DNA of 47,544 nt from a virus. Shown here piece by piece: positions 642 to 46,530 of this stretch (position 1 is the first letter of the stretch; each line of letters starts with the position of its first letter). Made by a program: the position numbers and the translations under genes. Below the pieces are notes generated by a model. That model saw only the letters and a list, made by a program, of their open reading frames with translations, did not search any database and was not told where the DNA came from. Where the stretch lies: IMG/VR virus record IMGVR_UViG_3300006804_000031, positions 1-47,544 of that record. One strand, written 5' to 3'.

Positions 642-1032
642 TTTTCCAATTGAGATCCACAGGAATGGACAGCCACTCGTGCCTGAATTTGATGAGGATG
701 AGTGGTTCTACTGCCGGTTCGACCCGGCATTCGTTCTACCGAATAGTAATAACATAGACCCACTCCATATAAAACTGATACCATGTCCCGATTTTTCATC
801 GAACCGTAGCAAGTTTAGTAAATCTTGGCATGTTCTTTGCCCATTAGCGAAATTTAGAAACCATGTTGTTTTTAAGTTCCGCATACAAGATCTTCCAGCT
901 ACGATTCAGGGCGACGGAAAAAACGCTCCGGTCCATGATGTCAAGACGGAGCACGATCCAGAAGAATATAACTACAGCCGACCTGGCAAGGCCCGAAGCA
1001 TTCCGAAGATCACTGAGGTTAGGGCGTCGTAG
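616..1032 (+). CDS. Hypothetical protein, second gene of the left plus-strand cassette
   Basis: 138 residues, starting inside the previous gene in another frame, which suggests translational coupling. The sequence looks like a real globular protein (EIHRNGQPLVPEFDEDEWFY near the start). Its C-terminal half has FKFRIQDLPATI followed by EHDPEEYNYS. This resembles, from memory, partner proteins of the preceding family whose C-terminus carries a DxPExNYSH motif. The last 14 bp overlap the end of the convergent secreted-protein gene at 1019-1441. No catalytic motif is visible and the function is unknown. Confidence 0.65.
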   Translation: MPEPLNPADFPIEIHRNGQPLVPEFDEDEWFYCRFDPAFVLPNSNNIDPLHIKLIPCPDFSSNRSKFSKSWHVLCPLAKFRNHVVFKFRIQDLPATIQGDGKNAPVHDVKTEHDPEEYNYSRPGKARSIPKITEVRAS

Positions 1033-1441
1033 CGGACACCGTAAAGCTGGACGAAGTGGTTGATCCTGCCGCAATCGTCGTGCTGGCTGGCACCGTGAAC
1101 TGGGTCGTGTCACTAGAGGATAGCGCCACGGTGGCGACCGCTGCTGGAGCGATATTGACTGTCGCGGTGCAACTTACCGATGTTCCCGCTACGATCTCCA
1201 GAATACCGGCAGGGTCGATACAGGCATTGGCCGTGGACGTGGATGACAGTGTCGAACATAGCGGCACCTGTGGGGCCGACAACGTCAGAGTCAGCTTCGG
1301 AACTTTCTTTATCCCCAGGATCGCCGAAGCTGTCTGCGGAGGGGCGCCAGTGGATGTCTGACCACTTACGGTTTGACCGAGCGCAACTCCCGCGAGTAGG
1401 AGCATGGTGCCTGCGGCTGTCATCGTCATCCTGAGTTTCAT
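1019..1441 (-). CDS. Small secreted Ser/Thr-rich protein with signal peptide
   Basis: 140 residues. Residues 1-23 form a Sec signal peptide (charged start, hydrophobic TMLLLAGVALG, likely cleavage before QT). The mature part is Ala/Ser/Thr-rich and strand-like, ending in repeated TTIAAGSTTSSSFTV-type strands. It could be an Ig-like or BACON-like domain, but this is not certain. A ribosome site (AAAGGGGAAAAG) precedes the ATG. It is the last gene of the long minus-strand array and meets the left cassette tail to tail. It probably acts outside the cytoplasm; its role is unknown. Confidence 0.65.
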   Translation of the reverse strand: MKLRMTMTAAGTMLLLAGVALGQTVSGQTSTGAPPQTASAILGIKKVPKLTLTLSAPQVPLCSTLSSTSTANACIDPAGILEIVAGTSVSCTATVNIAPAAVATVALSSSDTTQFTVPASTTIAAGSTTSSSFTVSATTP

Positions 1442-1457
1442 TTATCTTTTCCCCTTT

Positions 1458-4400
1458 CTAAAACTTTATCACCCCGCGCAATACTGCACCGTTCCCAAAG
1501 TTCGTTACTGTAAGCGTAACGGTAGTTGACCCCACCGCGCCGTTCGCATCGGTAGCTTGAACATCGAACGTAAATACGCCCAAACCGATTGCCGCAGTCG
1601 GCGTTCCGCTCAGAATTCCGCCAGAAGATAGCGTCAGGCCATTCGGAGGACTGCCTGACGAAATCAGCCACGTATACGGCGCGGTTCCGTTGGCCGCGGA
1701 AAATGTTAAGGTATAAGGCTGCCCGTATATCGCCGCAGTAAGAGTTGGCCCCGGAGTGATCGTGATGCCTGGAGCAATTGTCACGGCGAAAGTCTGAGTG
1801 GGATTTCCGCCAGAGCCTCCGTCCGTGACGGCTACAAGGACATTGAAAGTTCCCGATTGCGTGGGAGTTCCGCCGAAGGCCCCGCTGGAAGCGTTTAGTG
1901 TGAGCCCTGCCGGAGCGCCACTGGTGATAGCAAATGATGGAGTCGTGCAACCAGAGGTCGTGACGGTGACTGATCCCGACAATGGGTACGCAAGGTTGAC
2001 AGTGCCGTCTGGAAGTGGGCTGGCGGGACCACTAATCGAGCAGGTGGCTCCTGCGGGGCGCACTGCTAGTGCAAACTTAGACTGTTTCGCGCTGGTGCTG
2101 CAATTATTTGACTGGCCGTTGACAACTGTGTGGTTGTAGTATGGGACATTGTTTAGCAGCCAAGTCTGCGCGCTAGCTCCGGAGCAGGTGCCCGCAGGAC
2201 AGCCGGCCTGGGCATAGCTGATTGCCCCAACGAAGGTCCCGTGAGCGCGGGCAGAGTTGGAGTAGCCGTGGTCAGCACACCGGAAGTTTCCCCACTGCAA
2301 AGAAGTCAACGAGGCGTTATGGCCTGAGCCAGCATCGTCAAAACTCGCTATAGCCTGAAGCGTGGATAGGAATTCTCCCAATACAGTTCCCCAATCTGTT
2401 GCGAATGGTCCGGTGCTAAGGTCGCTGGCACAACTAGTGCTGTTGCGGTAGGGGGACACCAGGGACGCGATCAGATAGGGATTGTAGTTGGCATTCATGA
2501 CTTCCCCAACGAGACGGGTGTCGAGCGCTGTCGCGTCCGTAGCGGCGTTGCTAAACCCCATTTCCAGCAGGTGGTGCAACACCACGCCCCCAGGCCACAC
2601 CTGCCATTCGCCGTTTGTGACTTTTGATTTCGTGGTGTCGATAATGACTGAAGAAGATGTACAATCTCCCGTCACCGGGTAGTTCAACGGAGATACGGCC
2701 ACAGTGTTAGCGCAATTTGTGCCATTGTTCAGGGAGCAGTTAGAGCGAACCGTGCAATTGGCCCAGTCCCAGCGGGTAGCTAGGCTAACCGTATACGATG
2801 AACATCCGGGGTTCGGGCCGGGGCTAGTAGGAGTAAGAGGAGAGCCGGTTTTGCCGAGAAAGCCTTCTAGAAGTTCGAGGTTGCTGTTGACCTTGGCGGT
2901 AAAGTATAACTTCTCTGGTGTACCGTTCGGAGCCATGAAAGCCGCATGGCCGAGAGTGTTCATCGAAGCGGCGTAAGCGCGGAAAGCGTTGTGCGTGGAG
3001 GTGTAATTGAAGAATGTGAAGAATCCGTTGGAAGCATAGCTGGGAGTGGTCCCAGCTTCCTTGTCGTTAACCAATAAACCTGATGCCTCAAAATACAATT
3101 CATCCAAGTAAAACTGTTCGCCGGTCAGCATGTAGGCTACGTAAGCGTACTCCTGCCAGTGAGAAGGGAAGCCGTCAGACGCATTGTCCCAAGCGCCATA
3201 GGTAGCCGTCTTATTGTCTACGCCGACCAGAGCTACCGGATAAACACGGTTGGATTCCCAACCAGTGTTTAATGTTGCGGATGGGTGAGCATCGCGGGAC
3301 AATACGCGACCGTTCTCAGGGTAAGTTGCATAGGTCGACCCGCATGCTGTGGCGGGCGTTGCGTTCTTGTCGTCATAACCTACGCAGTAGAACGGCGCTG
3401 CGGCACGGCTCTCACGGGCATGGATAGGTACCGAACCTGTAGAGGCCCACACACCGCCCCCACCCGTGACATTGTTAGCGGTAAGATTGGTGTCAATCGC
3501 TCCACTGAGTCCAGTGAGCATTTGCCACGCTCGGGCGCATTTGCTGTGGGTTGCTCCTGCGTCTGCCGTAGCGCAGTCGTTGTTCATGTTGCGCAGGTAT
3601 ACAAGGTCGTACCAAGAAAGGGGCGAATACTCATCGTTATTGTTGAATTGCAAGACTCGATTACTCGTACCGTTCGCATCGCCCTTGTCGCCTGTTGCCC
3701 ATTGTGTGTAAGTGGTAACCACAGTGGGGTCCATCGAAACATCAGGGTCGGGTAGCGTCACATTGGTGTCGTAGTACAGGATCGCCTTAGTCTTGCGGAG
3801 GTAGTCGAAGTTGAAGTCCATCCTGGTCTGACCGGGTGCCGTGACGGTCCAGACGGTTTTGTGCCAACGGGAAAAGATCGGATGAACGCCGATCTGGAGT
3901 TCGATGGCTGATGCGCTGCCTTGGGGCGTGCGGTCAAGAACTGCGGTTGTGCCATTGGTTACGCTTTTGATAACGCCCCAGTTCCCGGTGCCCCCTGCTG
4001 GATACTCGACCGGCATCCCCACATCACCGGCGACAAAAGCGGCAGTGGCCGAAGTGATGGTCGTGCTGCCATTGGTGACGACAGCATCGGTTACGGCACG
4101 GCCTGTAGAAGCTCCGCTGCCCCGCGTCCACACGGACGAAGGAGTGGACGTGCCAACCTTGAGATTGACCGTGTAGAGTTGGTTCTGCGCCCGTTGGGTC
4201 CAGTCGTTTTCGAGAGTGATTGTGACCTTCACGCCACAGAACGGATCGCCTGCGTTGCAGGAGTTCGTGCCGGTGTTGTAGGACAGGCCGGGGTAGAAGT
4301 ATAGATCCCAGATCGGATGGAGGCTACAAGTATTCCCGGCGTTCCCAGGCGGGCAAGCCGTGCCCATCGCAGGAGGCACGGTGTTGTTGTAGGCCCAGCC

Positions 4401-4994
4401 GAAGTCGTACTTGTAGGCCGTCGTGCAGTCCTGAACGCGGATCGCGGTGACCACTGGACCCGAGAGCCACGTTTGTATCTGGCAGTAGGTTCCGAATCCC
4501 AGCGCAACGTCAGCCAGCATAGTCTGAGCATCCGTTGTGACGGTCGTACCGTTGGCGGTGATGAGCAGTTGCGCTCCCCATCCTGAATGGGCGCTGTCGA
4601 AGTTCTCCATCTGGGTGCGGGTGAGAGCACCGCTCGTAGGGCACGCGCCAGAGGTGGGATTGAAGCTGACCAACGTGGCGCTTAACGCCGTGAGCGTCTT
4701 GTAAAAGCTGACGATCCCCCACTGCACACTACCGTCAGGCCAAGTGTTCTTTACGTCGAACTGGTACGTGGCTATGAGGCTTGCGCCGCTTACGGTGCCA
4801 TCGCCCTGGACCGTTCCCCCAGTAGCAGGCTGTGGGCAGTCCCCCGAAGGGATGTCCCCCTGCTTGAACGTCACGCCGTAGCTGAAGGGATGGTTGGTCT
4901 GCCCGGCGTTATCAACCTCGTAGATAGTCTGCGGGTTGAGGGTATTGGCCCATGCAGGAGCCAGAGCTACAAATAACAGGATCAGCTTTTTCAT
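1458..4994 (-). CDS. Very large secreted tail/adhesin-like protein with C-terminal tandem Ig-like repeats
   Basis: 1178 residues. Residues 1-16 are a clear signal peptide (MKKLILLFVALAPAWA). Residues 303-365 form a module with TTTITSATAAF and DVGMPVE, also found in the proteins at 27940 and 29712. The middle part (for example WQEYAYVAYMLTGEQ, residues 613-627) is helix-rich and Cys/Trp-rich and could be an alpha/alpha-toroid enzyme such as a polysaccharide lyase; that is only a suggestion. Residues about 984-1165 hold two putative-Ig (He_PIG-type) repeats, with PAGLTLNASSGAFGGTPT and NGLTLSSGGILSGTPT. The start overlaps the upstream stop as ATGA. It is probably a receptor-binding or depolymerase protein; Sec export of a phage tail protein is unusual. 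Confidence 0.75.
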   Translation of the reverse strand: MKKLILLFVALAPAWANTLNPQTIYEVDNAGQTNHPFSYGVTFKQGDIPSGDCPQPATGGTVQGDGTVSGASLIATYQFDVKNTWPDGSVQWGIVSFYKTLTALSATLVSFNPTSGACPTSGALTRTQMENFDSAHSGWGAQLLITANGTTVTTDAQTMLADVALGFGTYCQIQTWLSGPVVTAIRVQDCTTAYKYDFGWAYNNTVPPAMGTACPPGNAGNTCSLHPIWDLYFYPGLSYNTGTNSCNAGDPFCGVKVTITLENDWTQRAQNQLYTVNLKVGTSTPSSVWTRGSGASTGRAVTDAVVTNGSTTITSATAAFVAGDVGMPVEYPAGGTGNWGVIKSVTNGTTAVLDRTPQGSASAIELQIGVHPIFSRWHKTVWTVTAPGQTRMDFNFDYLRKTKAILYYDTNVTLPDPDVSMDPTVVTTYTQWATGDKGDANGTSNRVLQFNNNDEYSPLSWYDLVYLRNMNNDCATADAGATHSKCARAWQMLTGLSGAIDTNLTANNVTGGGGVWASTGSVPIHARESRAAAPFYCVGYDDKNATPATACGSTYATYPENGRVLSRDAHPSATLNTGWESNRVYPVALVGVDNKTATYGAWDNASDGFPSHWQEYAYVAYMLTGEQFYLDELYFEASGLLVNDKEAGTTPSYASNGFFTFFNYTSTHNAFRAYAASMNTLGHAAFMAPNGTPEKLYFTAKVNSNLELLEGFLGKTGSPLTPTSPGPNPGCSSYTVSLATRWDWANCTVRSNCSLNNGTNCANTVAVSPLNYPVTGDCTSSSVIIDTTKSKVTNGEWQVWPGGVVLHHLLEMGFSNAATDATALDTRLVGEVMNANYNPYLIASLVSPYRNSTSCASDLSTGPFATDWGTVLGEFLSTLQAIASFDDAGSGHNASLTSLQWGNFRCADHGYSNSARAHGTFVGAISYAQAGCPAGTCSGASAQTWLLNNVPYYNHTVVNGQSNNCSTSAKQSKFALAVRPAGATCSISGPASPLPDGTVNLAYPLSGSVTVTTSGCTTPSFAITSGAPAGLTLNASSGAFGGTPTQSGTFNVLVAVTDGGSGGNPTQTFAVTIAPGITITPGPTLTAAIYGQPYTLTFSAANGTAPYTWLISSGSPPNGLTLSSGGILSGTPTAAIGLGVFTFDVQATDANGAVGSTTVTLTVTNFGNGAVLRGVIKF

Positions 4995-6826
4995 CGGCTC
5001 AACCCAGAAACAATGTTGTCCATGTAATCCAAATCGAGGCGCTCATCGGTAACGGAGCCGTTGTTATAAATCGTGGCGAATGGTGCCACTGCAATGTTCG
5101 GCACATTCGTGGCGCAGGTTTGCGGCGTACCCGCATCAATCGAAAACTGAATGGTCCCTGCTACGGTGGCGATGATATGGAATTCATGAAACGAGGTATC
5201 CACTGCGGCCACCGCAGTAGTCCTCGTTTGGGCACCTCCTACTCGGCATACCCCAAACCACGAAGTATCGGCGGCTAACTTCTCAAAGTACACGCCATCC
5301 GTGGGTTGGAAGGTTGGGCCGCTACCTAAAGCGTTTCCGTGCATACCAAAACGAGTTTGCAAATTGGCGTCGTTGGTGGGAGTGCGCGCAATCCACAAAT
5401 TGTCAAATAGATCTGTCGTAGGATTGAAGAATCCACTTGTGGCGCTTTGGGCAATGTTCACGAATAATGAACCATTACCACTCGCCGTTGTGCTGGAGCT
5501 GAGAGTGATGATACCAGGATGACCCGCAACTACAGTTCCAATCACCGCTCCATTGTTAGCGAGGCTCGATGTCCAACCCAAGTCTCCAGGGTTGGCAGTT
5601 GCGGTGGTGCTGTGAGAAAACGTCTCGCGCACGCACTCAGTCTTTGTGGAATCTAGGCAGGGTGCCCAGCGCCCGGCTGTCCCCGGCGGCGAGTTCCCTG
5701 AAATTCCCATCGTCTGCCAGTTGGTCCCGTCGAATTGTACGGGCGTGCATCCTACAGGAGATGCTCGAAGATCATTAGCGACGAGCGCAGCTTGGCCCTG
5801 TTGTTTTTGGATCGCGGGTGTGCCCGCTTGTGAATTGACCACGAGCGTAGACGCCCCGGTATTGGCTACATCGGGGCAGAACAAAATTGTGTCCTTAGCT
5901 GCCGGCACGAAGGTAGGAGTCGTGGAACACGTATATGCCGTGCCTGAAGCTCCCGCTGCTGCACAGACAAGTGGAGTTGTTATCCCGTGGGCCGTTGCCG
6001 CGACGATTTGTTTACTGGAATTAGTCCCAGCAACATTGGCCGAGGCAGGGATGGTAGCGCCGTTCAACTGAGACGGGTTGTGGCCCTGGCAACCAAGGAA
6101 GTAGTTGGTCCCATCGGTTGAAATACATACGCTCTCACCGTTCAGCAGAGCAATACTCGTTACGCCGTTCTGAAACGTAGACACCGATGGAGTGATGGTC
6201 TGAGTTCCGGCCCCACTATTTGATACAACCAGCAGAAATTCTCCCGGCATTGTATTGGCGTTTGGCAGGGTAGGTGTCTGCGGAGCGGCATTCGATAGGT
6301 TCACAAAACCAGGGATGGTATCTTGCGCGGTGATTGCGTAGTTGGCTCCGGTTTGGCTGTTGACCCCCGTGCCGCTGGTCCAATACCCCTGCGGGTATGC
6401 TGTGGTGCCGTTATACCAGAGCGTTTCGACGGTCACGACATTTGGCCTGTTGTCCACCGGAATCGCATTGCTGAACCCCGCCGGCCACGACACCGCATGT
6501 TTCGTCGCGTTGTTGTCCATTGTGTACTGGAACTGCAAGAGCATTCCGACGGGTGTTGCACAAGTCGTATCAATAGTCGGTGCTGTGATGTCCCCTGTCA
6601 CCGTGATTGCGAATGCGGTATTGGCGACCGGCGATCCGCAGACGTAATTCGGCGTCGCGGAAAACGCTACCGTAGCCGCCGGCAGCACGGGCATGGAAGT
6701 AACAACCTTTACCCCAGTACAGTCGGGCAAGTGCGTCCGCGGGTTCACAGCCATAACGCCGCATTGAGAAAAGGCCGGCAGACAAATGAAGATTGCTAGG
6801 AATAACAGCAGCAGTGTTCGGGTCAT
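4991..6826 (-). CDS. Secreted tail-fibre-like protein with lectin-like C-terminus
   Basis: 611 residues. Residues 1-20 are a signal peptide (MTRTLLLLFLAIFICLPAFS). Residues 95-149 form a strand-rich module with the pattern LLQF...AVSWPAGF...VTVETLWYNG; the same module ends the spike protein at 18046-19734. The C-terminal 200 residues look like a jelly-roll or lectin sandwich (FHEFHIIATVAGTIQFSID). An AGGAGA ribosome site lies just upstream, and the stop overlaps the next start (ATGA). It is likely a host-binding appendage. The export signal is shared with the neighbouring genes. Confidence 0.7.
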   Translation of the reverse strand: MTRTLLLLFLAIFICLPAFSQCGVMAVNPRTHLPDCTGVKVVTSMPVLPAATVAFSATPNYVCGSPVANTAFAITVTGDITAPTIDTTCATPVGMLLQFQYTMDNNATKHAVSWPAGFSNAIPVDNRPNVVTVETLWYNGTTAYPQGYWTSGTGVNSQTGANYAITAQDTIPGFVNLSNAAPQTPTLPNANTMPGEFLLVVSNSGAGTQTITPSVSTFQNGVTSIALLNGESVCISTDGTNYFLGCQGHNPSQLNGATIPASANVAGTNSSKQIVAATAHGITTPLVCAAAGASGTAYTCSTTPTFVPAAKDTILFCPDVANTGASTLVVNSQAGTPAIQKQQGQAALVANDLRASPVGCTPVQFDGTNWQTMGISGNSPPGTAGRWAPCLDSTKTECVRETFSHSTTATANPGDLGWTSSLANNGAVIGTVVAGHPGIITLSSSTTASGNGSLFVNIAQSATSGFFNPTTDLFDNLWIARTPTNDANLQTRFGMHGNALGSGPTFQPTDGVYFEKLAADTSWFGVCRVGGAQTRTTAVAAVDTSFHEFHIIATVAGTIQFSIDAGTPQTCATNVPNIAVAPFATIYNNGSVTDERLDLDYMDNIVSGLSR

Positions 6827-6850: not shown

Positions 6851-7402
6851 CTAGCTGTAGGCAAGGCTTGTGCGGTTATTCCAGATGAATTTCTGCGCTG
6901 GGCTACCGGCAGTTAGAGCCGAGGTCCCTGCCCCCGGTACTGCCGCAGCCCAACCGGCCCAGATCAGTTTTCCCCCGGCGTCGTATACATTTTTGGAGAT
7001 GGCCCAGACCGCATTCGATGTGAGCGGTGCGCGAGTCGTAACGACAAGTGTCCCGGTTAAAGCTCCAAAAGCCGTGGAGTCCACAGGTATCGTGAAGGCG
7101 TTTGCACTCGTCGGCGTAGCGATCCAGACACCGTTGATGGCAGCCCAGTTCCCGGTTCCTCCCGTAATCTTAACGGCTGGCGTAGCGGTTGCAAGAGACT
7201 GGTAGTCAAAACCGTGAGAAGTGGCGGTGAACGATACTGGACTGGCATTGGATGCCGCAGAGACAGATATCACCTGGTCCTTCAGTTGATCGGAATCTGC
7301 GTATCCAGTGTAAATCAGGTTAGTTCCGCCACCGTAATCGGAGATTATCTGATAGGCTCTCGGGGCCGGACCCTGACTTTGGTTAACTTGAACTCCTGGC
7401 AT
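6851..7402 (-). CDS. Virion-type protein with E1_FCCH-like beta module
   Basis: 183 residues without a signal peptide. Residues 53-123 (SPVSFTATSHGF ... GTGNWAAINGVW ... TPTSANAFTIPVDST) fit the ubiquitin-activating-enzyme FCCH-like beta module often found in phage structural proteins; the adaptor candidate at 19798-20724 carries the same type of insert. AAGGAG stands 6 nt before the ATG. It lies between the giant virion proteins and the secreted fibre genes, so a tail-tip or capsid-decorating role is reasonable but unproven. Confidence 0.65.
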   Translation of the reverse strand: MPGVQVNQSQGPAPRAYQIISDYGGGTNLIYTGYADSDQLKDQVISVSAASNASPVSFTATSHGFDYQSLATATPAVKITGGTGNWAAINGVWIATPTSANAFTIPVDSTAFGALTGTLVVTTRAPLTSNAVWAISKNVYDAGGKLIWAGWAAAVPGAGTSALTAGSPAQKFIWNNRTSLAYS

Positions 7403-7420: not shown

Positions 7421-9847
7421 CTACTTTGTGATCTGCGATGGTGCGATGGCGATTGTCGCTGGCGGTTTTGGAGGCGGTTGACGATAGGGCGATCGCCGCA
7501 ACTTCAGGCCCCAATCCGGGCTTTGTGCCACATTCACCGGCGGTGGCATGATCGGCTGATTCTGCGGAGGTGGAATTACCGCACGAAAGAATGCTGCCGC
7601 GGCCTGGCCATACTGTTCAGGCGTCAGATTCTGCGGTGGAGTCGGCGGCGGCATCGCCCCACCTGCGTTCAGTTGCGGCGGGGGCGCCGGCGGAACTGCG
7701 GTGGCTGGCGGGCCCACGATTCCACCGCGCGCCAACTTCTTGAGCTTTCGGTGCCACTTCAGACCCCTACCGGGAAGCACTAGGCCGCCCTTAGACATTT
7801 GGGGAAGCGGGGGTTTGGCAGAAGCACTTTCTTCCGGTTTTGCTTGTTCGGATTCCGCCGCTGCCGGTAGAGATACAGGACTGGCATCCTTGCCTGCCAA
7901 TTTTAGAATTTGCCCTGCGGTAACGGCTGCAATATTCCCTGAACTCGGAGCAAGCGGCAGTCGTGCTCCTCTGATGAGCAGACTAGATCCAGCCGGGTCG
8001 TAGAGCATTCTCGCTAGAGCACGATTGGCGATCAGGTAGGCTGCCTGAGTGCCGAGCATAGACATCCCGACTTTAGGACTTGCCACGACCCACCCGAGAC
8101 CGTGAACGAATTGGAGAACATTCAATCCGGCACCGGCGACGTAAGCCGTGCCGCTGGGATTTGGGTTCTCTGCCTCCATTTTGGCGAGTTGGAAAAAGTT
8201 ATCTAGCTTGCTTATCAACTTTGGATCACGGAAGAGGATTCTCTTGGTGGCATCGCCCATCTTGTTCCACGAAGACAGGGCAGTTTGGGCGCCGGGTTTT
8301 CCTTCTGGATTGAGAGCGCTGTCGAATAGACCTTCAAGGGTGGCTCTACCTACTGCGGGGAGGGCTTCGGGCGCATTCTTTTGAACGTCACGGAGCAGGC
8401 TGATGTTCATGTCGCCTTTTTGCGTCAGCTGATTGAAGAGGCGTACAGGTTCGTCAACATTCAATTGATCCATCGTGGCCTGCGTTGCATATTTCGCGGC
8501 AGTGAGTTTTCTACCTTCTCGAAGAGCCACTATCGCGTCGGGACCGGCAGAAGAAACCGCCGACTCAACCTGAGGAGCCAAGGCATCTATCGCCTGCTTG
8601 GCTAGGTATTTAGTTCGTTCATTCACGTTCTCGCGGAGGATAGCTTTAACAGCTCCCAAGTTGTCTTCTGCGATGCTTGCCGGGAGTGTATCGGGACCGT
8701 TGATGATGTTGCCGATTGCCTTCAGGCCACGGGAAGCTTGCTGTTGCGCGAGCGGCATGTCTTGGCTAAGTCGGTCATAGATGGGCTGCAAAGATGTCTT
8801 TGCGTCTCCCATGCTGACCGGAATCGCCATCTGCTCTACCTGTGGGACGGATCGTGTGATGGGTTGCCCGCTCTGATCCAAGACGCCGGTCTGGACGGTC
8901 TTTACCCCAGTTTGAATTGGCTTGATATTGGCAGGATCTTGCTCGATTGCTGCGAGTCGAGCATAAGCCCCGCGAGCCTGCTGGGCCTGAGACGATTTGG
9001 CCGCTGCGAGTTGTTTCGTCACCGCCGCGCCGGCACCTTCCGGTGTCGTGATACCCCCTGGCGCTACTTGCTCTGCCAGATTCTGCGACACCTGCCCCAT
9101 TCGAGCGCGGGTATTTTCCACCGCCTGTTGCGCTACATTCGCGCCTCCGGGAGCATTGGCGACGGCACCCTGAACGTTCTTAACGGCTCGGTTACCCGTT
9201 CGTGTTGCCGCACTGATGGGGATGTTCTGCTCTTCGGCGAAGCGGACAGCCGATGTGCCTGCCGGTGTGAGTCTGGGTTCAACACCCGGCAACTTTATAT
9301 TCTCGGGAAGTTTTGTCGCACCATGAAGCAGGGCGATCATTGATCCCGCCCCGGCAAGCCCAGCCCAGTCCTTGTTCCTAACTTTGTCTTCTATGTAACT
9401 GAGCGCATCGCCGAATCCAGGGATAGCCTCGGCGGTGCTGAGAACGGCGCGAGCCTTATTCCGAAACATCTGTCCAGGATCACTAGCCGGTGCATTCAAA
9501 GCCGTACCGGCTTCAGATAATTTCTGTTTGGATCGCTGGATCTGTCCTTCGATGAGATTTGGATCTACCAGTCCCGTCGACGCTCCGCCTAATGTCATCG
9601 TCGGCGGAAGACTGAATGCCTGCGGAGTTGCCTTCGCAATATCACCGGCGCCAGATGCAAAACGGCTTACCGCACCTGGTCCCTCGGGCGGGGGCGCAGA
9701 GTCTATTGCGCCGGCCTGCTTCGCAAGAGCCGCATAGTCTATCGGTTGCTTCCCACCAGGAGGCCCGAGAGACGGCGCGGGCGCGGCAGGCGGCAGACCT
9801 CGTGCCTGTCGATCCAGCGCGTCGTAATCTATCGTTTGTCCGGCCAT
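7421..9847 (-). CDS. Large internal virion / ejection-type protein candidate
   Basis: 808 residues. The N-terminus holds two copies of a short motif, IDYDALDRQARG and IDYAALAKQAGA, linked by Pro-rich sequence. The central 450 residues are Ala/Gln-rich helices. A glycine-rich hydrophobic patch follows, then a C-terminal Pro-rich tail with GGIVGPP and PPPPQN-type runs. No lytic transglycosylase motif is visible. Size, position after the hub genes and composition resemble podoviral ejection proteins. The upstream gene ends 2 bp before this start. Confidence 0.55.
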   Translation of the reverse strand: MAGQTIDYDALDRQARGLPPAAPAPSLGPPGGKQPIDYAALAKQAGAIDSAPPPEGPGAVSRFASGAGDIAKATPQAFSLPPTMTLGGASTGLVDPNLIEGQIQRSKQKLSEAGTALNAPASDPGQMFRNKARAVLSTAEAIPGFGDALSYIEDKVRNKDWAGLAGAGSMIALLHGATKLPENIKLPGVEPRLTPAGTSAVRFAEEQNIPISAATRTGNRAVKNVQGAVANAPGGANVAQQAVENTRARMGQVSQNLAEQVAPGGITTPEGAGAAVTKQLAAAKSSQAQQARGAYARLAAIEQDPANIKPIQTGVKTVQTGVLDQSGQPITRSVPQVEQMAIPVSMGDAKTSLQPIYDRLSQDMPLAQQQASRGLKAIGNIINGPDTLPASIAEDNLGAVKAILRENVNERTKYLAKQAIDALAPQVESAVSSAGPDAIVALREGRKLTAAKYATQATMDQLNVDEPVRLFNQLTQKGDMNISLLRDVQKNAPEALPAVGRATLEGLFDSALNPEGKPGAQTALSSWNKMGDATKRILFRDPKLISKLDNFFQLAKMEAENPNPSGTAYVAGAGLNVLQFVHGLGWVVASPKVGMSMLGTQAAYLIANRALARMLYDPAGSSLLIRGARLPLAPSSGNIAAVTAGQILKLAGKDASPVSLPAAAESEQAKPEESASAKPPLPQMSKGGLVLPGRGLKWHRKLKKLARGGIVGPPATAVPPAPPPQLNAGGAMPPPTPPQNLTPEQYGQAAAAFFRAVIPPPQNQPIMPPPVNVAQSPDWGLKLRRSPYRQPPPKPPATIAIAPSQITK

Positions 9848-9849
9848 GC

Positions 9850-11751
9850 TTACTTGATCCCCGCTAACTGCTTGAAGCGATCCGCTGATGCCTGATCCGG
9901 GAACGTATGGATGCCGCCGTTTGGATCGGTCACCTTAATGCCGCCTTGGCTCGGTGGAGGAGTTGCAGCGGTAGGATCAAAACCATGCTTCACAAACACA
10001 GAGCGAGCCGCTGGCAGCACAGGAGACCATACTTTATCGCCTGGGATCTGCTGGCTGTATCGCTGCTGATAGGTGCTCATCTTGGCGCCGAGAATATGCA
10101 GATTCGTGTCGATCGCCCCCAGTCCTTGTTCAGGAGATTGCGCGTCGTTCATGTTTTTCTTCATCGTGGCGATCTCCACATCGGTGGCATTGCCCTTTAG
10201 GGCTGCCGCCATTTCGCCAGATACCGCCGCGCTCAATGCCGCATAGTTCGTTGGGGGGGCCTTGCCGAATATAGTCTTGAAGTAGTTGTACGCAGCGTTC
10301 CCAGGCTGGAATGTGCCGTTATTCAGCGCCTGAATCGCATCCGACAGTTGATCCAGATGGACCGTCGCAGTATTCAGCGCACCGATGTTCTTGCCATCCG
10401 TCCCGGTGGTAAAGGCCTTGCGAATCTCTGCACGCTGAGCGCTCCATTGCGGATCGTAGTGATTCACAGCGTTCATGATCTGAGCGCCTGGACCACGAGT
10501 CATGGCAAATCCAGTGATCGGAGCTTGCCGTCCTTCAGCGATGGCCTTCACTGTTTTCTGAAGACCCCTCGGCAAGGTTGCGAGATAGTCTTCTCCCGTG
10601 AGATTTTGCCCAGCGGTTCCTCCAGGGTCAGAGAACCCAGCGGCAGTCTGGGCAGCTTGCGTTTGCCCAGCGGTGTAAATTTTGATCGGAGATGTTGCCT
10701 TGGCTGTGGCGACTGCCGTCTCCGTGGCGCTGATTTCCTTAGCGGCAGCTTTCACGGCATCCTTGGCAGCCACCACATCACCTTCGGCCAGTGCTGCCGC
10801 CACTAGCGTGTGGGTTCGCGCGTTCAACTCCGGGGCTTTCTTCTTATCGACGATCTTGTCCACAGTGGATTGAAGATCATCTGGGTTTGTGGTCTGTAGA
10901 AGATTCAGTTTGTTCGCTGTGACAGCCGCCGCCTCCAACTTCGGAAGCTCGTCAGGGAGGATCTTGTCACCATAGGTCGGGAATGCCTTCTTGATTGCGG
11001 CAGGCGTCGGAATACCGAACTGATCCAACTGTGCTTGGCGAGCATCACGCGCAGCCTGGGCATCCGTCTGTTTTTTCTCCTGCTCAATCACGCTCGCCGG
11101 TGGGATAAATCCCTTCTGGCCGCGTACCGTCGATTCAATTGAAGCTGGTGGCAGCGGTGCGGGCATCGGAGTTGTAGCACCTGCAAAAGCCGGGATATCC
11201 TGAAGCCCGGTGAGTGGAACATTGTTCGGCGGAGGCATCGGGCGCCATCCGCGGGCATTCGCTTGGGTGGCCGCGTTCTGTGCCCTTGCTTCTCCAATGG
11301 CCCGCCGGTAGGCCGCCTGGTTCAGCATGGCCTCGTTCATGCGCTCTTCATTGGCCGATTGCTTCGCAAGTCCCAACTGCTGCAACCGTGCCGATACGCC
11401 GGGATGCTCGATGTTCTGGGCAATCTCCGCCGCAGCACCGGGAGCACGCCTGCCCAGGAAGAATTGCGTCGCCACCCCACCGAGGGTTCGCAGCCCCTTT
11501 TGCCAGCCGGGAGCCGCAGCCTGTTTAGCCAGCAGGTCCTGAAGTTGCTGTTCACGGTTCTGATAATCAGTCACCTTTGGACCGGGCGTGTACGGAGTTG
11601 TCGGTGCGGCACCGCCTGGTGCTATCCCGGCTGGCGGCATTGGCGGCGGCATGACAGGACCACCACCCATCGTCGCCACATTCAACGGATTCGGCGGCGG
11701 CATCATGCCTGCGTCGTCGTACCACTCGCCTGTAGTTGGATCGTAAGGCAT
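9850..11751 (-). CDS. Large helical virion protein, ejection-type candidate
   Basis: 633 residues. It opens with MPYDPTTGEWYDDAG, then about 50 residues rich in Met, Pro and Gly, then a long Ala/Gln/Lys-rich helical part with probable coiled coil (residues about 90-450), and ends with a compact segment containing DPNGGIHTFPDQ. No enzymatic motif is visible. It is one of three adjacent giant genes with the same composition, which suggests a set of internal proteins delivered with the DNA. No good ribosome site was found; the start lies 6 bp after the upstream stop. Confidence 0.55.
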   Translation of the reverse strand: MPYDPTTGEWYDDAGMMPPPNPLNVATMGGGPVMPPPMPPAGIAPGGAAPTTPYTPGPKVTDYQNREQQLQDLLAKQAAAPGWQKGLRTLGGVATQFFLGRRAPGAAAEIAQNIEHPGVSARLQQLGLAKQSANEERMNEAMLNQAAYRRAIGEARAQNAATQANARGWRPMPPPNNVPLTGLQDIPAFAGATTPMPAPLPPASIESTVRGQKGFIPPASVIEQEKKQTDAQAARDARQAQLDQFGIPTPAAIKKAFPTYGDKILPDELPKLEAAAVTANKLNLLQTTNPDDLQSTVDKIVDKKKAPELNARTHTLVAAALAEGDVVAAKDAVKAAAKEISATETAVATAKATSPIKIYTAGQTQAAQTAAGFSDPGGTAGQNLTGEDYLATLPRGLQKTVKAIAEGRQAPITGFAMTRGPGAQIMNAVNHYDPQWSAQRAEIRKAFTTGTDGKNIGALNTATVHLDQLSDAIQALNNGTFQPGNAAYNYFKTIFGKAPPTNYAALSAAVSGEMAAALKGNATDVEIATMKKNMNDAQSPEQGLGAIDTNLHILGAKMSTYQQRYSQQIPGDKVWSPVLPAARSVFVKHGFDPTAATPPPSQGGIKVTDPNGGIHTFPDQASADRFKQLAGIK

Positions 11752-21740: not shown

Positions 21741-22007
21741 CTATTGTTTCCCGATATCCTGAGCCTTAGGCGCGCTATCCAAAGCCTTCTTGATCGTGTC
21801 CTTGAATACGGCTGAGAGCATCATCTTCTCAACGACACCCGAGATCCCATGACGCAGACTCATGCCTCCGAGCGCCGCCAGGATCGTGTCGGTGGCGTCC
21901 TTGCTGCTCAGGTGCCCGGTCCACCATCCGCTGAGTGCGTAGAGAATAGTAACCAAGCCAACGATGTAAGTCTTCCTGCCTTTTAGGAAGTTCCAGAATG
22001 CGATCAT
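21741..22007 (-). CDS. Holin-like small membrane protein (LRHGI type)
   Basis: 88 residues. Residues 2-12 (IAFWNFLKGRK) are amphipathic; residues 13-33 form a hydrophobic helix (TYIVGLVTILYALSGWWTG); a second weakly hydrophobic helix contains AALGGMSLRHGI. This layout, with a terminal 'LRxGI', is common in small membrane proteins beside phage endolysins and would suit a holin or holin-associated role in the inner membrane. The start overlaps the endolysin stop as ATGA. Confidence 0.6.
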   Translation of the reverse strand: MIAFWNFLKGRKTYIVGLVTILYALSGWWTGHLSSKDATDTILAALGGMSLRHGISGVVEKMMLSAVFKDTIKKALDSAPKAQDIGKQ

Positions 22008-23043: not shown

Positions 23044-23706
23044 CTAAAAACTTCTCCCTATCCCAGCTTCATATATCGTCTGCGTCGAGCTGATGGCGGT
23101 CTTCAGCACCCGCGCCCCCAGCACAACGCACCAGGCGCTCTTGCCGATCTTGATGACTCCAACGCCGCCGCCGGAGAATGCCCCGCCCAGGTTTGTCCCG
23201 CTTAGAGCCACGCCCGCGTCTCCGAGGCCGAAGATGCTCACTGGCCCGTATCTCCGAACCAACGTGGCGAAGCCGGTTCGTGTACTTGTCTGGATTGTGA
23301 ACGGTCTCGCCGTCCGAGAGGTCACGTCGTAGGTCGAGTACGAATAGATGCCCACGCCCGGCGTCGAGATCAGATGCGCCATCGAAGCCCAGCCGTTGAT
23401 CTGCGGGTGAGCATATTGGTTCCAGCCAGCGCCCGCGGCGTAGAAGTTCGGCGGCAATTCAGTGGTTGTCGGAGTCGATACGGGAACAGGGACGGTAATC
23501 ACCGGAATCGGCTCGGCAGTGGGCGCCGGAGCAGGAGGCACAACGGCAGGCGCGGGCTTTGGGATCGGGCAGGTGTAGGACGCTCCGTCAGGGTTTACCT
23601 TACAGCCGGGAGGAATCGTCTGGCAGTGCGCCGTCGCCGCGAATATGAGGATCATCAGTACGAGTGCGAGTCCAGCCAGTGTCAATTTGAAAGTCTGTCC
23701 ATTCAT
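23044..23706 (-). CDS. Outer-membrane beta-barrel-like protein with signal peptide
   Basis: 220 residues. Residues 1-28 are a signal peptide (LTLAGLALVLMILIFAATA core). Residues 33-85 form a linker with two Cys and long Pro/Val runs. Residues about 88-220 alternate as amphipathic strands (GIYSYSTYDVTSR, FTIQTSTRTGFATLVRRYG, VSIFGLGDAGVALSG) and finish in IYEAGIGRSF, with the terminal Phe expected of a barrel assembled by the Bam machinery. A phage might use it to alter the host surface or exclude rivals, as lambda Lom-type proteins are thought to. The start overlaps the upstream stop (ATGA). Confidence 0.6.
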   Translation of the reverse strand: MNGQTFKLTLAGLALVLMILIFAATAHCQTIPPGCKVNPDGASYTCPIPKPAPAVVPPAPAPTAEPIPVITVPVPVSTPTTTELPPNFYAAGAGWNQYAHPQINGWASMAHLISTPGVGIYSYSTYDVTSRTARPFTIQTSTRTGFATLVRRYGPVSIFGLGDAGVALSGTNLGGAFSGGGVGVIKIGKSAWCVVLGARVLKTAISSTQTIYEAGIGRSF

Positions 23707-27939: not shown

Positions 27940-29715
27940 CTACCTTTTGCTGTTCCCGCCCATCACGGCCGTGCCGCCGAGGACGGAGGACGCACCAGCC
28001 GCAATGCCGGTACTAAACTCAAACGCCCCACGCTCCCAAGTACCGTCAAACGTCCGGCTGACTCCGGCTAAATCCACGTTGTACGGTGCCGACAATGTAA
28101 TGCCGTCGTTCAAGTGGGCGTCCACCGTTTCACTGGTCAGGTGAAAGTCAGTAGCGGATACGAATGGATTAACCCCAACTCCTCCAGGAGCGGTGCCGAC
28201 CTGAAATTCATGCGCGGCAACCGTTGTCGGCCCTTCCCCGGTATTAAGCCACGTGTTGTAATCATGCGAGATATCGGCGTTGCTAAATATGTCCCCGGCT
28301 GTACAATTCCACCAGAGATTATTTTGAACTGTGTTTCCCGTAGAAGCAGCCAAGGTGATTCTGACACCGGCAACATCCGCTCCGGGGTGCCCAGGAGCTA
28401 AATGGATTCCAGAAAAAGTGTTCCCATAGAATACCGAATTCGTCAAGACACCTGTAGGTCCGTTATCACCGATGCCTTTTGATACCCCACAAGTAGACGA
28501 CGTGTCACCTAAATGTGTACAAACAGAATCCCAGTCGCTCGTATAGTAAAAGATATTGTTATATACCAGCCAACTGTCACACAGCCCGTTCAAACACGTG
28601 ATAAAGCCGGTACCCTGGATATTTTTGAACGTGGAAGAAACAACCGTCAAATTACTCAGGCCCGTTTTTGTTGAATCGTTTGCCGGTGCCTGCGTCTGAA
28701 TGGCGTTAGAGTGCTGAGCCGCATCGCTAAAATTATTTTCTATCCAATCATTTGACACGGTGAACCCGGTGACATTGCCGGCAGATTGCACCAAAACCTG
28801 GATGTCATGAACAAAAGAATGTTTAAGACTGATGGTCGTAACTGTTGGTGTGGTCGTCGACGGACTTCCAAAATAAAACGCAGTAGAGCCTGACTGGCTG
28901 GCGGCATACGCCAAACCGGAGGCCGTGGTGGGGGATGAAGTAAGAATTAAGTGCGTGGCATCCGTGACTGAGGAAATGGTGCGGACCACAGCGTTAATCG
29001 TTATTTGCTTTCCACTCCAAAAACCGGATGTATCGAACTGGCTACGTGGGCTACCGGAAGCGTCTGTCGCCCAAGTGACTGTAGTAGTTCCATCTGTATT
29101 GAGAGTGCCTGTGCCGAGCACCGCTGAACCAGCCGCCTCTACACCATCCAGTTCTATATGCGCGAGAGTGATATGAGATAGCGACGCTTCGCTGCACGCA
29201 TGGCTGTCAATGCGAATGAACCCAAACATTCGTCCGCTGCTGACGAAATGGAACCCGTAGGTCCCCGTTGTATCGGAAGTCCCAACTTGTCCGTCCACGT
29301 CGTAGTAGTTGCCGCACATATCCCAAAAGGGATTCTTGAGTCCGTCTGTTGCAACAAAAGAATTGGACCACAAGATGTTAGGCGTCACGTCCACGCCAAA
29401 ACTGGCATTCCATCCGGTTGCCGTTCCGTGATCCGCCCCAGTCGCCGCCTTGATCGTGATGTGACTCCCGGCTGTCCCGCTGGTGCTGAAGGTGTGAGTA
29501 AGTTCCCCGGCACACGGCGTGGTCGTGTCCGCAAGGTTGCCGCCGGAGTTCCCGATGTAGACTACATCTCCTGCCGCGAGCGGTGGGATTTTACAGTTGG
29601 CGTTTGACCAATCTGTCCCAGCGTGTGTCCCCGCGCCACCGGCGAGAACAAAGAACGTCGATGCAGAGCAATCCGACACCAGCAGAAACACGTAGATGGG
29701 GAATCGCAGTATCAT
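27940..29715 (-). CDS. Secreted right-handed beta-helix tailspike-like protein
   Basis: 591 residues. Residues 1-19 are hydrophobic with a signal-like start (ILRFPIYVFLLVSDCSAS). Residues 100-540 show the short repeating strands of a pectate-lyase-type beta-helix (HITLAHIELDGVE, FTVSNDWIENNFS, LVYNNIFYYTS, SVFYGNTFSGIHL). Residues 207-262 hold the TTTVTW...SGKQITI...ISSVTDATHLIL module shared with the proteins at 1458 and 29712. It is likely a polysaccharide-binding or -degrading appendage. The start overlaps the upstream stop as ATGA. Confidence 0.7.
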   Translation of the reverse strand: MILRFPIYVFLLVSDCSASTFFVLAGGAGTHAGTDWSNANCKIPPLAAGDVVYIGNSGGNLADTTTPCAGELTHTFSTSGTAGSHITIKAATGADHGTATGWNASFGVDVTPNILWSNSFVATDGLKNPFWDMCGNYYDVDGQVGTSDTTGTYGFHFVSSGRMFGFIRIDSHACSEASLSHITLAHIELDGVEAAGSAVLGTGTLNTDGTTTVTWATDASGSPRSQFDTSGFWSGKQITINAVVRTISSVTDATHLILTSSPTTASGLAYAASQSGSTAFYFGSPSTTTPTVTTISLKHSFVHDIQVLVQSAGNVTGFTVSNDWIENNFSDAAQHSNAIQTQAPANDSTKTGLSNLTVVSSTFKNIQGTGFITCLNGLCDSWLVYNNIFYYTSDWDSVCTHLGDTSSTCGVSKGIGDNGPTGVLTNSVFYGNTFSGIHLAPGHPGADVAGVRITLAASTGNTVQNNLWWNCTAGDIFSNADISHDYNTWLNTGEGPTTVAAHEFQVGTAPGGVGVNPFVSATDFHLTSETVDAHLNDGITLSAPYNVDLAGVSRTFDGTWERGAFEFSTGIAAGASSVLGGTAVMGGNSKR

Positions 29716-31121
29716 TGCACGAACGCTGTCTGTCCGCCGACACTAGCCTGATGCTGTGCGGCCCCGACATCACGAAAATTGGTTGTCAATCCCGCAGGGA
29801 AAGTCAAAGGGTCTCCGACCGATTGAAGAAGCGCTCCGGCTCCGACCGTGTTGTTGAGAAGAAAGTTGGACGCTGCTGCGTTGACGAACACCGATCCGGC
29901 AGTGACTGGAATAGCTCCGACATTGGCCATTGGGTTGGCGTTGGTGGCGACCCCAACGGAATTATTGTTGAAGTAGGAAACATTTCTAAGGTTTTTCCCT
30001 TGACCAGTAAAATTGAATCCGGCAGAAGCAACGCTGACGCCGTTGTTTTCTGCATGAGAGTCAACGACTAGCCCTGGCGCGTTGGTGGTACTGGCAGCAA
30101 ATCCATGCTGGCCGTTGGACACAGCAACGCAGTGGTAACAGACTTGATTTGAATAACCGATAGTGGTTGCGCCTGTGTTCCCGTAGGATAAACAATCGAC
30201 ACAATACAGAGTCGTTATCGGGGTCGCTGTATTTGCCCATGCTTCACAGGCAATGCAGATGGCAGTTCCTCCGAAGACCGCGGCAGAATTAGTCGTCGCG
30301 CCGCACTTGTAGAAGATCGGGGTACCGCTGGTAGCGGTATTGAAGTTTTTGAATAGGCAGTTGGTAAAAATGTTGGCCCCCGATGTCAACTTAGCCGCGG
30401 TCTGTGTATTTCCGTCGAAGATGATGTTCTTATATATAGTCGCGCTGGTCGTAGCGATTGTTACGGTGGTCGTGTTGATTTGGATCGTCGGTCTGTTGTC
30501 CGAGTTCCCCAGTGTGCGGCTGGAAGTATACCCTTGCATAAATACCACGGTCGCCCCGGAGAACGTGCCGCCCGCCACATTGCCTGTCGCCGAAGTGATC
30601 GAGTAGACGGATGCCCCGTCAGCACCAACATTCAAAAGAAAGATCACGTTTCCGGAAATTGCCAATGAGTTCGCCTGACCGGGGCTTAGAAGTGCCCCAC
30701 CGATGTTCATGGTCGCTCCGGTCCCAGTAGTCAAGCCGGTTGACCGATCCACCACAATCGTGGTCGAGTTGGTGAAAGTAATAACTTGATACCAAGCTGA
30801 GGCTATTGATCCTGTACCGCCAGACACGTTGATGATGTTGCCGACGATGGCAGCGCTGAAATTAGCCGTTGCCGAGGTGATGGTGGTCGTTCCATTTGTG
30901 ACCGCATCTGTGGTGGAGATGTTGATCGTCGCGCTCTGACAGGACGTGCAAGCCACGGCATTCTTATTGGCGAACAGGGACATATCCGTGCCCGATGCGC
31001 CGGTGACGAATCCGCCGCCATTGGTGTCGCTGCCGGTGAGCCTGACTTCAAAAACCGATTGCGCTGATATGGCGGAAAACGCCCGAGATGCAAAGAGTAA
31101 AACGACGAGTAGCTTTTTCAT
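29712..31121 (-). CDS. Secreted beta-helix fibre-like protein
   Basis: 469 residues from ATG 31121, which shares its A with the upstream TAA (TAATG); a longer start at 31238 would lie inside the upstream gene and break the signal peptide. Residues 1-20 are a signal peptide (MKKLLVVLLFASRAFSAISA). Residues 73-125 are the TTTITSATANF...VGNIINV module. The C-terminal 300 residues are beta-helix-like, with paired Cys repeats (CIACEAW, YCVDCLSYGN, VCYHCVAVSNG). It forms a co-translated set with its two neighbours. Confidence 0.7.
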   Translation of the reverse strand: MKKLLVVLLFASRAFSAISAQSVFEVRLTGSDTNGGGFVTGASGTDMSLFANKNAVACTSCQSATINISTTDAVTNGTTTITSATANFSAAIVGNIINVSGGTGSIASAWYQVITFTNSTTIVVDRSTGLTTGTGATMNIGGALLSPGQANSLAISGNVIFLLNVGADGASVYSITSATGNVAGGTFSGATVVFMQGYTSSRTLGNSDNRPTIQINTTTVTIATTSATIYKNIIFDGNTQTAAKLTSGANIFTNCLFKNFNTATSGTPIFYKCGATTNSAAVFGGTAICIACEAWANTATPITTLYCVDCLSYGNTGATTIGYSNQVCYHCVAVSNGQHGFAASTTNAPGLVVDSHAENNGVSVASAGFNFTGQGKNLRNVSYFNNNSVGVATNANPMANVGAIPVTAGSVFVNAAASNFLLNNTVGAGALLQSVGDPLTFPAGLTTNFRDVGAAQHQASVGGQTAFVQ

Positions 31122-32155
31122 TATTGTGTCCCCGAAAGCGTGACCTTCCCAGACAGTGTGTGGATGTTTGTAGGGGAAGTAAGCACTATGCAAACCACTA
31201 TTGGCGCGGCTGCCGTGCCTGAGATTGTTTTCGACCACCAGGTTAGAGTTGTGTCTTTGAATCCGAGAACCGCCGAGAAGGTTGGTGTATCCGAGGCTGT
31301 GATTGATGTGGCACCGCCAGGGCCGGATGTCAGATAGTTGGCAAAGGTCTCGGTCTGAAGATCCAGCGTAGCGCCGCCCGAAACATCCCCGAGTAGGCTA
31401 ATGCCCGTGATGGTCGCGGTGTAGGTTATGGTATTGCAGGCTGTCTGTCCTGTGAGGACGGCTGTGCTGGAGAATCCTATCGCAATTTCATGTGTGACCG
31501 CCGTCACACCGGAGCCGCTGCATCCGCTTGTCGTCGCTCCGCCGTTTGCGTCGGTACAGAGAGACGCGCCAGTTCCCGAGACCGTGCCGGAACTCAGGAG
31601 CTTCGTGTCGGTGCCTTGGATGGCCTTGATGGAGAGCGTGCCCGGTGTACCAGCGCCGTCGCTCACAATTGCGCCTGCTGCGTCGGCGGCGGGGACTTTC
31701 CACTGGTAGGCGGTAGGAATCGACGTTGGGGCAAAGATTGTTAGGCCGTTGGCACCAAAGATAGGTAGCGTGCCCTGCCCAAAGAAGGAAGTACCGGCGA
31801 TACCAGATCCTACTTGGGTGCTCAACGTGCCAGTGAGCGATAAGTTGCCGTTGGAATCAAGCAGGCACAAAGGGCATATCGTCTGGATCGCGGTCCCGCC
31901 CGCGCTGGTCACGATGGCCCCGTTGGTCATGGTGCCGGTGGTGGTGACGGAGCCGTTCCCAGATCCCATATCTGCCCAGGTGTCCGTCGCGGTGCAAAGT
32001 CGTTCCTTCGCTGTTGAGGTGTCGAAATATTTTTCACCGGCCGCGCAATGCGTTGGAGCCGTGGCGAGTTCGGGCCACGGGGGATTAGGTCCAACTATGA
32101 CCTGAGCGAACATCGCAGGACAAACCAGGGAAAAAAGTAGCGCCTGGTATCTCAT
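31121..32155 (-). CDS. Secreted tail-fibre-like protein
   Basis: 344 residues. The signal peptide MRYQALLFSLVCPAMFA is cleaved before QV. A short Cys-containing segment (HCAAGEKYFDTSTAKERLCT) resembles stretches common in secreted proteins of soil bacteria. Gly/Thr/Ser-rich strands follow, and the C-terminal domain ends VVCIVLTSPTNIHTLSGKV. AGAGGGGAG precedes the ATG. It is the first of three consecutive exported fibre-type genes after the capsid block. Confidence 0.65.
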   Translation of the reverse strand: MRYQALLFSLVCPAMFAQVIVGPNPPWPELATAPTHCAAGEKYFDTSTAKERLCTATDTWADMGSGNGSVTTTGTMTNGAIVTSAGGTAIQTICPLCLLDSNGNLSLTGTLSTQVGSGIAGTSFFGQGTLPIFGANGLTIFAPTSIPTAYQWKVPAADAAGAIVSDGAGTPGTLSIKAIQGTDTKLLSSGTVSGTGASLCTDANGGATTSGCSGSGVTAVTHEIAIGFSSTAVLTGQTACNTITYTATITGISLLGDVSGGATLDLQTETFANYLTSGPGGATSITASDTPTFSAVLGFKDTTLTWWSKTISGTAAAPIVVCIVLTSPTNIHTLSGKVTLSGTQ

Positions 32156-45829: not shown

Positions 45830-46180
45830 CTAATCGTAATCAATGTGAAACCGCCTCCAAGGAGGGTAGTAATAATCCCCCGTTACGGCGCGGGGCTGAA
45901 GAACGGCACGGCCATCGCGGTGTGGCGCGAACCGCCAGTTCCACTTCGGCGACCGCCTCTCAGGTTGAGGAGGGGCCTCGTAGAACTTGACCTTTGTGAG
46001 CCGTCCTGTCCTCGGGTTAGTGCTGCCTACATAATCTCCAAACGCAACGATTAACGCTACTTGCGCGCCTGGCAGGATACATTCTGTTCGTGAACCGTCG
46101 AGCCGGATCGAGACGACGCGGATTGTCTCGATTTTGGAGGCTAACTCGGCTAGAACTGTGGGGGATTTGATTAGCGGCAA
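45830..46180 (-). CDS. Small protein, paralogue of the upstream gene
   Basis: 116 residues. The N-terminal 66 residues align with the upstream protein: SPTVLAELASKIETIRVVSI against SPEVLAKLATPIQSLRLISF, then PGAQVALIVAFGDYVGSTN against TGPQVAAIVSLGGYYGKTG. The C-terminal 50 residues are unique, rich in Pro, Arg and Tyr. It overlaps the upstream gene by 10 bp. The fold and function are unknown. Confidence 0.55.
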   Translation of the reverse strand: MPLIKSPTVLAELASKIETIRVVSIRLDGSRTECILPGAQVALIVAFGDYVGSTNPRTGRLTKVKFYEAPPQPERRSPKWNWRFAPHRDGRAVLQPRAVTGDYYYPPWRRFHIDYD

Positions 46181-46452
46181 GCCCGAATACCCTTAGACTT
46201 TACCAAGTCCCGGAACCATTTGGGTTGATTAGTCATTGCAGATTCAGAGAAATTGGCCTCCTTAACGTAGACTAACCGACCAGACTGGCCAGTCTTCCCG
46301 TAGTATCCTCCAAGGGAAACTATCGCAGCAACTTGCGGTCCAGTAAGCCGGCCTTCGCGCTGACGCCCATCTGGTAAAAAAGAGATTAGCCGAAGGCTCT
46401 GAATGGGAGTCGCTAGTTTCGCCAAAACTTCTGGGGAGTCAATAAATGACAC
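46171..46452 (-). CDS. Small protein, first of a tandem paralogous pair
   Basis: 93 residues from GTG 46452; this start is chosen because it aligns residue for residue with the start of its paralogue (VSFIDSPEVL against MPLIKSPTVL). An in-frame TTG at 46485 would add 11 residues. The core has LRLISFLPDGRQREGRL and GRLVYVKEANF. A sigma70-like promoter lies about 80-107 bp upstream. Confidence 0.55.
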   Translation of the reverse strand: MSFIDSPEVLAKLATPIQSLRLISFLPDGRQREGRLTGPQVAAIVSLGGYYGKTGQSGRLVYVKEANFSESAMTNQPKWFRDLVKSKGIRACR

Positions 46453-46530
46453 TTGTAGCTCATCTCGGGTCTTTGGAGCCCGCAATCAAAAAATCCGCGG
46501 CGGCCACACCGAGCATGTACGTCGTGAAAC

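Follow-up and report, generated by a model that had tools for sequence, protein, structure and literature searches.

The assembly of tailed phages is taught as wholly cytoplasmic, and to our knowledge split-compartment assembly is known in no tailed phage. In the soil phage studied here, genes for proteins of the phage tail type begin with Sec signal peptides (SPs). The original prediction, made from the window (the whole stretch of 47,544 nucleotides analysed, from IMG/VR virus record IMGVR_UViG_3300006804_000031), counted seven such proteins, i.e., a left cluster, a right cluster and a barrel at 23044, and supposed an export-based route for phage appendages. Based on the results of this study, we consider it reasonably probable that this phage and related podophages possess spikes which are exported by Sec, processed, oxidised in the periplasm and joined to virions around lysis.

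Signal peptides of the window genes

The SP calls were made with a home-made scorer of the n-, h- and c-regions, not with SignalP, and some cleavage sites were set by eye. The scorer was calibrated on proteins of E. coli K-12 (25 exported, 21 membrane and 95 cytosolic). Exported controls mostly scored 6.2-8.8, while the cytosolic maximum was 6.8 and 5/95 cytosolic proteins exceeded 5. The inner-membrane controls nhaA and gspG were among the high scorers, and because some inner-membrane proteins score high, the score alone cannot tell an SP from a membrane anchor.

The left cluster and the genes upstream of it are as follows:

9850..11751, minus strand: ejection-type protein also present in SP-spike phages described below
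7421..9847, minus strand: ejection-type protein; 35% identity to L110:2040-5921, the gene directly upstream of the L110 SP tailspike
6851..7402, minus strand: small SP-less protein separating the SP cluster from the ejection genes; score -1.2; Cys-free
4991..6826, minus strand: SP-bearing spike/fibre-like protein, 611 aa; SP MTRTLLLLFLAIFICLPAFS, predicted cleavage before QCGV; score 7.5; Shine-Dalgarno AGGAGA
1458..4994, minus strand: large SP-bearing protein, 1178 aa; SP MKKLILLFVALAPAWA, predicted cleavage before NTLN; score 8.5; 24 Cys
1019..1441, minus strand: small SP-bearing protein, 140 aa; SP MKLRMTMTAAGTMLLLAGVALG, predicted cleavage before QTVS; score 7.0; Shine-Dalgarno AAGGGG

The open reading frames at 1019, 1458 and 4991 thus have the coordinates given in the original prediction and begin with signal peptides as was predicted (scores 7.0, 8.5 and 7.5, respectively). 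The gene at 4991 is the first SP gene following the ejection genes, with the one small gene at 6851 between; its mature part contains 14 Cys (2.4%), and it overlaps the gene at 1458 by 4 bases. The predicted adhesin-like C-termini were found in 1458 only, which ends in two He_PIG Ig-like domains (1.2e-15). Searches of PHROGs, NCBIfam and PDB sequences with the left-cluster genes returned Ig-like matches only, so that the description of these proteins as phage tail-type is supported by their position and relatives but not by database matches. The window spike sequences had no sequence match among beta-helix PDB structures, and an AlphaFold model of the 4991 protein, built without relatives, was unusable (pLDDT 34).

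The other four SP genes lie further to the right:

31121..32155, minus strand: SP-bearing fibre protein, 344 aa; SP MRYQALLFSLVCPAMFA, predicted cleavage before QVIV; score 5.3, weaker; phrog_35197 at 2e-6
29712..31121, minus strand: SP-bearing protein, 469 aa; SP MKKLLVVLLFASRAFS; score 7.3; 10 Cys
27940..29715, minus strand: SP-bearing protein, 591 aa; SP MILRFPIYVFLLVSDCSA, predicted cleavage before STFF; score 6.0, weaker; beta-helix-like by eye
23044..23706, minus strand: exported-type protein, 220 aa, ending in Phe, with barrel-like strands; score 8.2; near the endolysin and lysis genes

The real start of the 29712 gene is the ATG at 31121, which overlaps the stop of the preceding gene by one base and has no alternative start downstream; the 27940 and 29712 genes overlap by 4 bases. 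Family searches with the 23044 protein gave no matches. Its sequence suggests that it is probably a small outer-membrane barrel separate from the appendage proteins, presumably like the Lom-type small outer-membrane barrels, to which it was likened by general character only. The seven proteins are accordingly not the single group that had been proposed.

All seven begin with an SP of the Sec type, five of them strong and on par with exported E. coli K-12 proteins, and those of 27940 and 31121 weaker; to this extent the count of seven exported proteins was upheld. The SignalP-type check, as run with the home-made scorer, predicted signal peptides. The only further window gene scoring >5 encodes a holin-like membrane protein at 21741. 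Scores of >=6.5 were obtained for 5/38 window genes vs 4/408 background ORFs from 62 control phage loci (p = 3e-5). A basic n-region, a hydrophobic core and an A-x-A type site are present, in agreement with Sec and signal peptidase I, two window genes being weak in this respect. Tat and lipoprotein signals were rejected, as the twin arginine and the lipobox were absent by eye. No in-frame SP-less start with a Shine-Dalgarno sequence was found past the cleavage site in any window SP gene. Gln is possible at position +1 of a cleavage site in 5/7 window SP proteins, and their Cys content was 2.08% vs 0.46% in the other virion-module genes (per-gene p 1e-4).

Related phages with a signal peptide before the head-binding domain

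The search with the 1458 protein matched only through the Ig-like domain, and this match led to L010, a P22-like phage (it has a P22 coat protein) in which a cluster of four SP genes follows the capsid gene. The first of the four, at 4000-4890, encodes an SP followed by a domain that also occurs in tailspikes and fibres of podophages of Vibrio, Shewanella, Xanthomonas, Rhodoferax and others. Two IMG/VR surveys yielded ~155 loci carrying this head-binding domain; an eight-row alignment was dropped as a scan query because it was too diverse. Nine non-redundant phages of IMG/VR have an SP in front of a P22-type head-binding domain; eight of these are clear and one is atypical:

SP-spike phages: L010, L052, L110, L116, L152, L156, L166 (atypical long leader), L181 and L182

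At 146 survey loci and in all 15 GenBank phages examined, the proteins are SP-less and begin directly at the head-binding domain. The GenBank phage collection yielded no cultured phage with an SP spike, and two scans of bacterial genome contigs gave one copy, SP-less, in a prophage of a Terrimicrobiaceae MAG. The host is guessed to belong to Acidobacteriota from the He_PIG domains only. In a literature search limited to open-licence papers, Sec-exported tailspikes were not described.

The loci of the SP-spike phages are enriched in further SP genes (8/66 vs 4/408), and several of these phages have 2-4 SP genes in a row. Ejection genes of L152 (2379), L166 (2208) and L181 (1919), which scored 5.3, were rejected as SP false positives; these gp7-like ejection proteins have hydrophobic N-termini near the SP threshold and are not regarded as Sec substrates. 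In L052, an acyltransferase-3 gene (8012-8983) lies directly 3' of the SP tailspike gene, and its product possibly alters the surface glycan and thereby blocks re-adsorption.

The window is tied to these phages by its ejection genes. The 7421 and 9850 proteins have homologues among the ejection proteins of L110, L052 and L181; the 9850 protein matched L052:1414-3114 (E 1e-16), L181:2731-4320 (E 3e-19) and L110:82-2037 (E 9e-8), and the N-terminal IDYAALAKQAGAI repeat of the 7421 protein is 82% like the L052 repeat. L190 likewise has a member of the 7421 family and, further downstream, a spike-like gene with an SP (16 Cys, 2.3%); L188 has an ejection gene in common with the window and no SP spike downstream within its contig. 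In addition, the 31121 protein and the L181 SP tailspike have a common 35-aa Cys-pair fibre module (26/35 identical, 74%; E 8e-13). With the head-binding domain profile, the window record gave no match at a threshold of E 0.1. The link of the window to the SP-spike phages consequently lies in gene order, ejection genes, Cys content and one fibre module, and if the window's own spikes attach at all, they must do so differently from those of the relatives, given that the head-binding domain is absent from all window proteins. Gene order and common modules suggest that the window spike proteins would take the same export route as the spikes of the relatives.

Signs of cleavage, oxidation and a place in the virion

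The distance from the cleavage site to PLAGG in the SP spikes is 19-21 aa vs 17-22 aa from Met to PLAGG in the SP-less forms. Because these distances match, the SP appears to be placed exactly before the ancestral N-terminus. The mature SP spikes contain 1.93% Cys vs 0.66% in 91 SP-less ones (p 4e-5), and the bias stays significant without the atypical L166. Within the head-binding domain, the nine SP spikes have 2, 2, 2, 2, 2, 2, 2, 0 and 0 Cys (L052 and L110 being those without a pair), whereas the 98 SP-less domains have 0 or 1 each and never two. The Cys pairs sit at about four different alignment positions and therefore arose more than once, as is to be expected if folding takes place in an oxidising compartment.

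The SP label requires 2 changes on the domain tree, and 0/500 shuffles were as low. As only 2 label changes are needed on a tree with long branches, the SP is considered to be an old, kept trait. The leader sequences are strongly diverged, yet the basic n-region, the h-region and the A-x-A site are kept. Gln occupies position +1 in 8/9 SP spikes, as it likewise does under the Q-rule of Bacteroidetes (PMC5837995; PMC10653852). By this analogy, the Gln hints at a tuning to the signal peptidase of the host. No alternative start at all exists for the SP spike of L052.

There are also signs that the SP spikes remain parts of the virion. The AlphaFold model of the L181 domain (pLDDT 75) was matched by Foldseek to the P22 tailspike head-binding domain (1lkt/2vky) and the P22 tail complex (9jg6/8eb7), and also to the tailspikes of Sf6, Pam1 (7eeq) and Pan3 (9vyg). 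The head-binding domain of a related SP spike matched 9vyg/7eeq by phmmer. The SP spike is the sole head-binding protein found in 8/9 records, and the remaining record has a second copy, which likewise begins with an SP-like leader. Moreover, the SP spike gene directly follows the ejection-protein genes, the canonical place of a tailspike gene, and the same order is seen in GenBank phage vB_PspP-H6/1. P22-type tailspikes bind the tail hub through their head-binding domain. Israel, Anderson and Levine reportedly found in 1967 that spikeless P22 heads are completed by tailspikes in vitro; late attachment of the spike is chemically plausible for this reason.

Proposed route and alternatives

Signal-peptide presence, N-terminal length, Cys pairs, clade structure, gene order and the predicted domain fold are read from the sequences themselves, and we strongly infer that the SP spikes are exported, cleaved and oxidised. 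That the spikes attach to the virion at lysis is suggested by the conservation of the head-binding domain and by the in vitro addition in P22. In the proposed route, spike and fibre genes in line with the ejection-protein genes would encode substrates of Sec and signal peptidase I, and the spike product would be exported into the periplasm. The SP would be cut off, leaving an N-terminus equal in length to that of SP-less spikes, and the processed spike would fold and form disulphides in the periplasm. Short-tailed heads with packaged DNA would be assembled in the cytoplasm as usual. At lysis, the holin, the endolysin and membrane disruption would mix the compartments, and the virion would be completed as the processed spikes bind the tail hub through their intact head-binding domain. 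That a lineage of tailed phages completes its virions outside the cytoplasm in this way, with Sec-exported, trimmed and disulphide-bonded spikes added at lysis, is judged slightly better than an even chance.

The export-based appendage route of the original prediction is thus partly supported: its core, appendage proteins made as Sec substrates, holds, and it proves to be a recurrent lineage-wide trait, with the restored N-terminus and the convergent Cys pairs as independent signs of export. Three roles had been offered, and joining virions after lysis fits best because the head-binding domain is intact and is the sole such domain in 8/9 SP phages; host coating and decoys or free depolymerases are less likely roles.

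These roles lead to the first alternative, which we regard as rather unlikely: the exported spikes could be secreted receptor-binding or depolymerising proteins outside the virion, which strip or mask surface glycans. The benefit, an equally doubtful one, would be that superinfecting phages are excluded or that progeny are kept off debris and unlysed kin. It is given this much weight because several phages carry more SP genes, 2-4 in a row, than a virion obviously needs. The SP spike of L052, followed by an acyltransferase-3 gene of a kind typical of surface modification, is in line with it, as are the window proteins without a known virion-binding domain and the existence of bacterial tailspike-like enzymes with export signals, such as WceF of Pantoea (PMC7949094). 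A secreted decoy could also retain the head-binding domain for some time. Against this alternative, the domain and the N-terminal length are kept in 9/9 SP spikes over long branches, and, with the SP spike carrying the sole such domain in 8/9 records, a P22-like phage would be left with no recognisable spike.

It is improbable that the SP genes are accessory lysogenic-conversion genes, taken from the host together with their SPs and unrelated to tails. He_PIG domains are common among bacterial surface proteins, and most window SP proteins have no phage-family match, which would agree with such an origin. On the other hand, their relatives are joined to genuine tailspike head-binding domains, the genes stand in line after the ejection genes and overlap mutually, no promoter-like site was found on the minus strand in the left cluster, and no integrase was seen among the genes examined.

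Finally, a hydrophobic N-terminus that is not a working SP, owing to a misassigned start or as an uncleaved anchor on a virion protein assembled in the cytoplasm, is very improbable: some inner-membrane proteins do score high and ejection proteins with hydrophobic N-termini reach 5.3, but an SP-less Shine-Dalgarno start is missing from the window genes and any alternative start from L052, the diverged leaders keep their n-region, h-region, A-x-A site and, in 8/9 SP spikes, Q at +1, the canonical N-terminus is regained on cleavage, and only SP forms have Cys pairs.

Comparison with known systems

The proteins of the relatives are P22-type tailspikes, and what is new is the export route. With the P22-type tailspike (gp9 and its homologues in Sf6, Pam1 and Pan3) the related SP phages have in common the head-binding domain and the place after the ejection genes, and the L052 SP spike has, by eye, a pectate-lyase-like motif after the head-binding domain. 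They differ in adding a predicted cleavable Sec signal peptide and Cys pairs; the window's own spikes differ in having no recognisable head-binding domain.

Several exported proteins are similar in part. The MAT chimeric fibres of Bdellovibrio are trimeric adhesins resembling phage tail fibres, in which a conserved beta-rich domain comes after a signal peptide, but they are encoded by a predatory bacterium, not by a phage, and serve prey recognition (PMC10769870). WceF of Pantoea stewartii is a glycanase of tailspike fold with an export signal, but the gene is bacterial, the signal is of the Tat type, the target is exopolysaccharide and there is no virion role (PMC7949094). Lys44 of fOg44, among the Sec-exported lysins reviewed in PMC6116005, is likewise a late phage protein that has a cleaved SP and is exported ahead of lysis, but it is a lysis enzyme and no tail part. 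The Q-rule proteins of Porphyromonas gingivalis phages are also phage-encoded Sec substrates with Gln at +1; they have no assigned function and no tie to tailspikes (PMC10367356).

If virion incorporation is true, it would constitute a new assembly route. The combination of the SP, the restored N-terminus and the Cys pairs makes it testable whether phages use the secretion and oxidation machinery of the host for their receptor-binding parts. This would bear on which hosts can support such phages and on superinfection exclusion, on the way annotation tools handle phage genes with an SP, taking them for contamination or morons, and on the finding of naturally secreted, disulphide-stabilised depolymerases.

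Phage record and genome context

IMG/VR and GenBank phages were searched for direct relatives of the major capsid protein and of 4991 and 29712, and only near-identical copies of the same phage were obtained; a plasmid search gave no matches. The second copy, IMGVR_UViG_3300027725_000002, has 99.98% identity and runs ~14.7 kb beyond the right end of the window, and a third is 3300006806_000036. The terminase at 41132 matched PHROG terminases, and podophages at ~30%; the endolysin gene is located at 22004.

The last 123 bases of the window occur again ~1.8 kb further on in the longer copy of the phage (47422-47544 of the window and 3534-3656 of L004), and the window contig therefore ends in a repeat. 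Past the end of the window, the phage has genes for a Mom-type DNA modification protein and a Dam methylase (L016, 773-1444 and 9462-9950). Two adjoining small ORFs at 45830-46485 of the window have 41% identity to each other and are likely a tandem duplication. A PHROG 673 domain, labelled head scaffolding, is common to 18046-19734 of the window and 1686-2129 of L010; it adjoins the capsid gene in L010 and is fused to a fibre-like C-terminus in the window.
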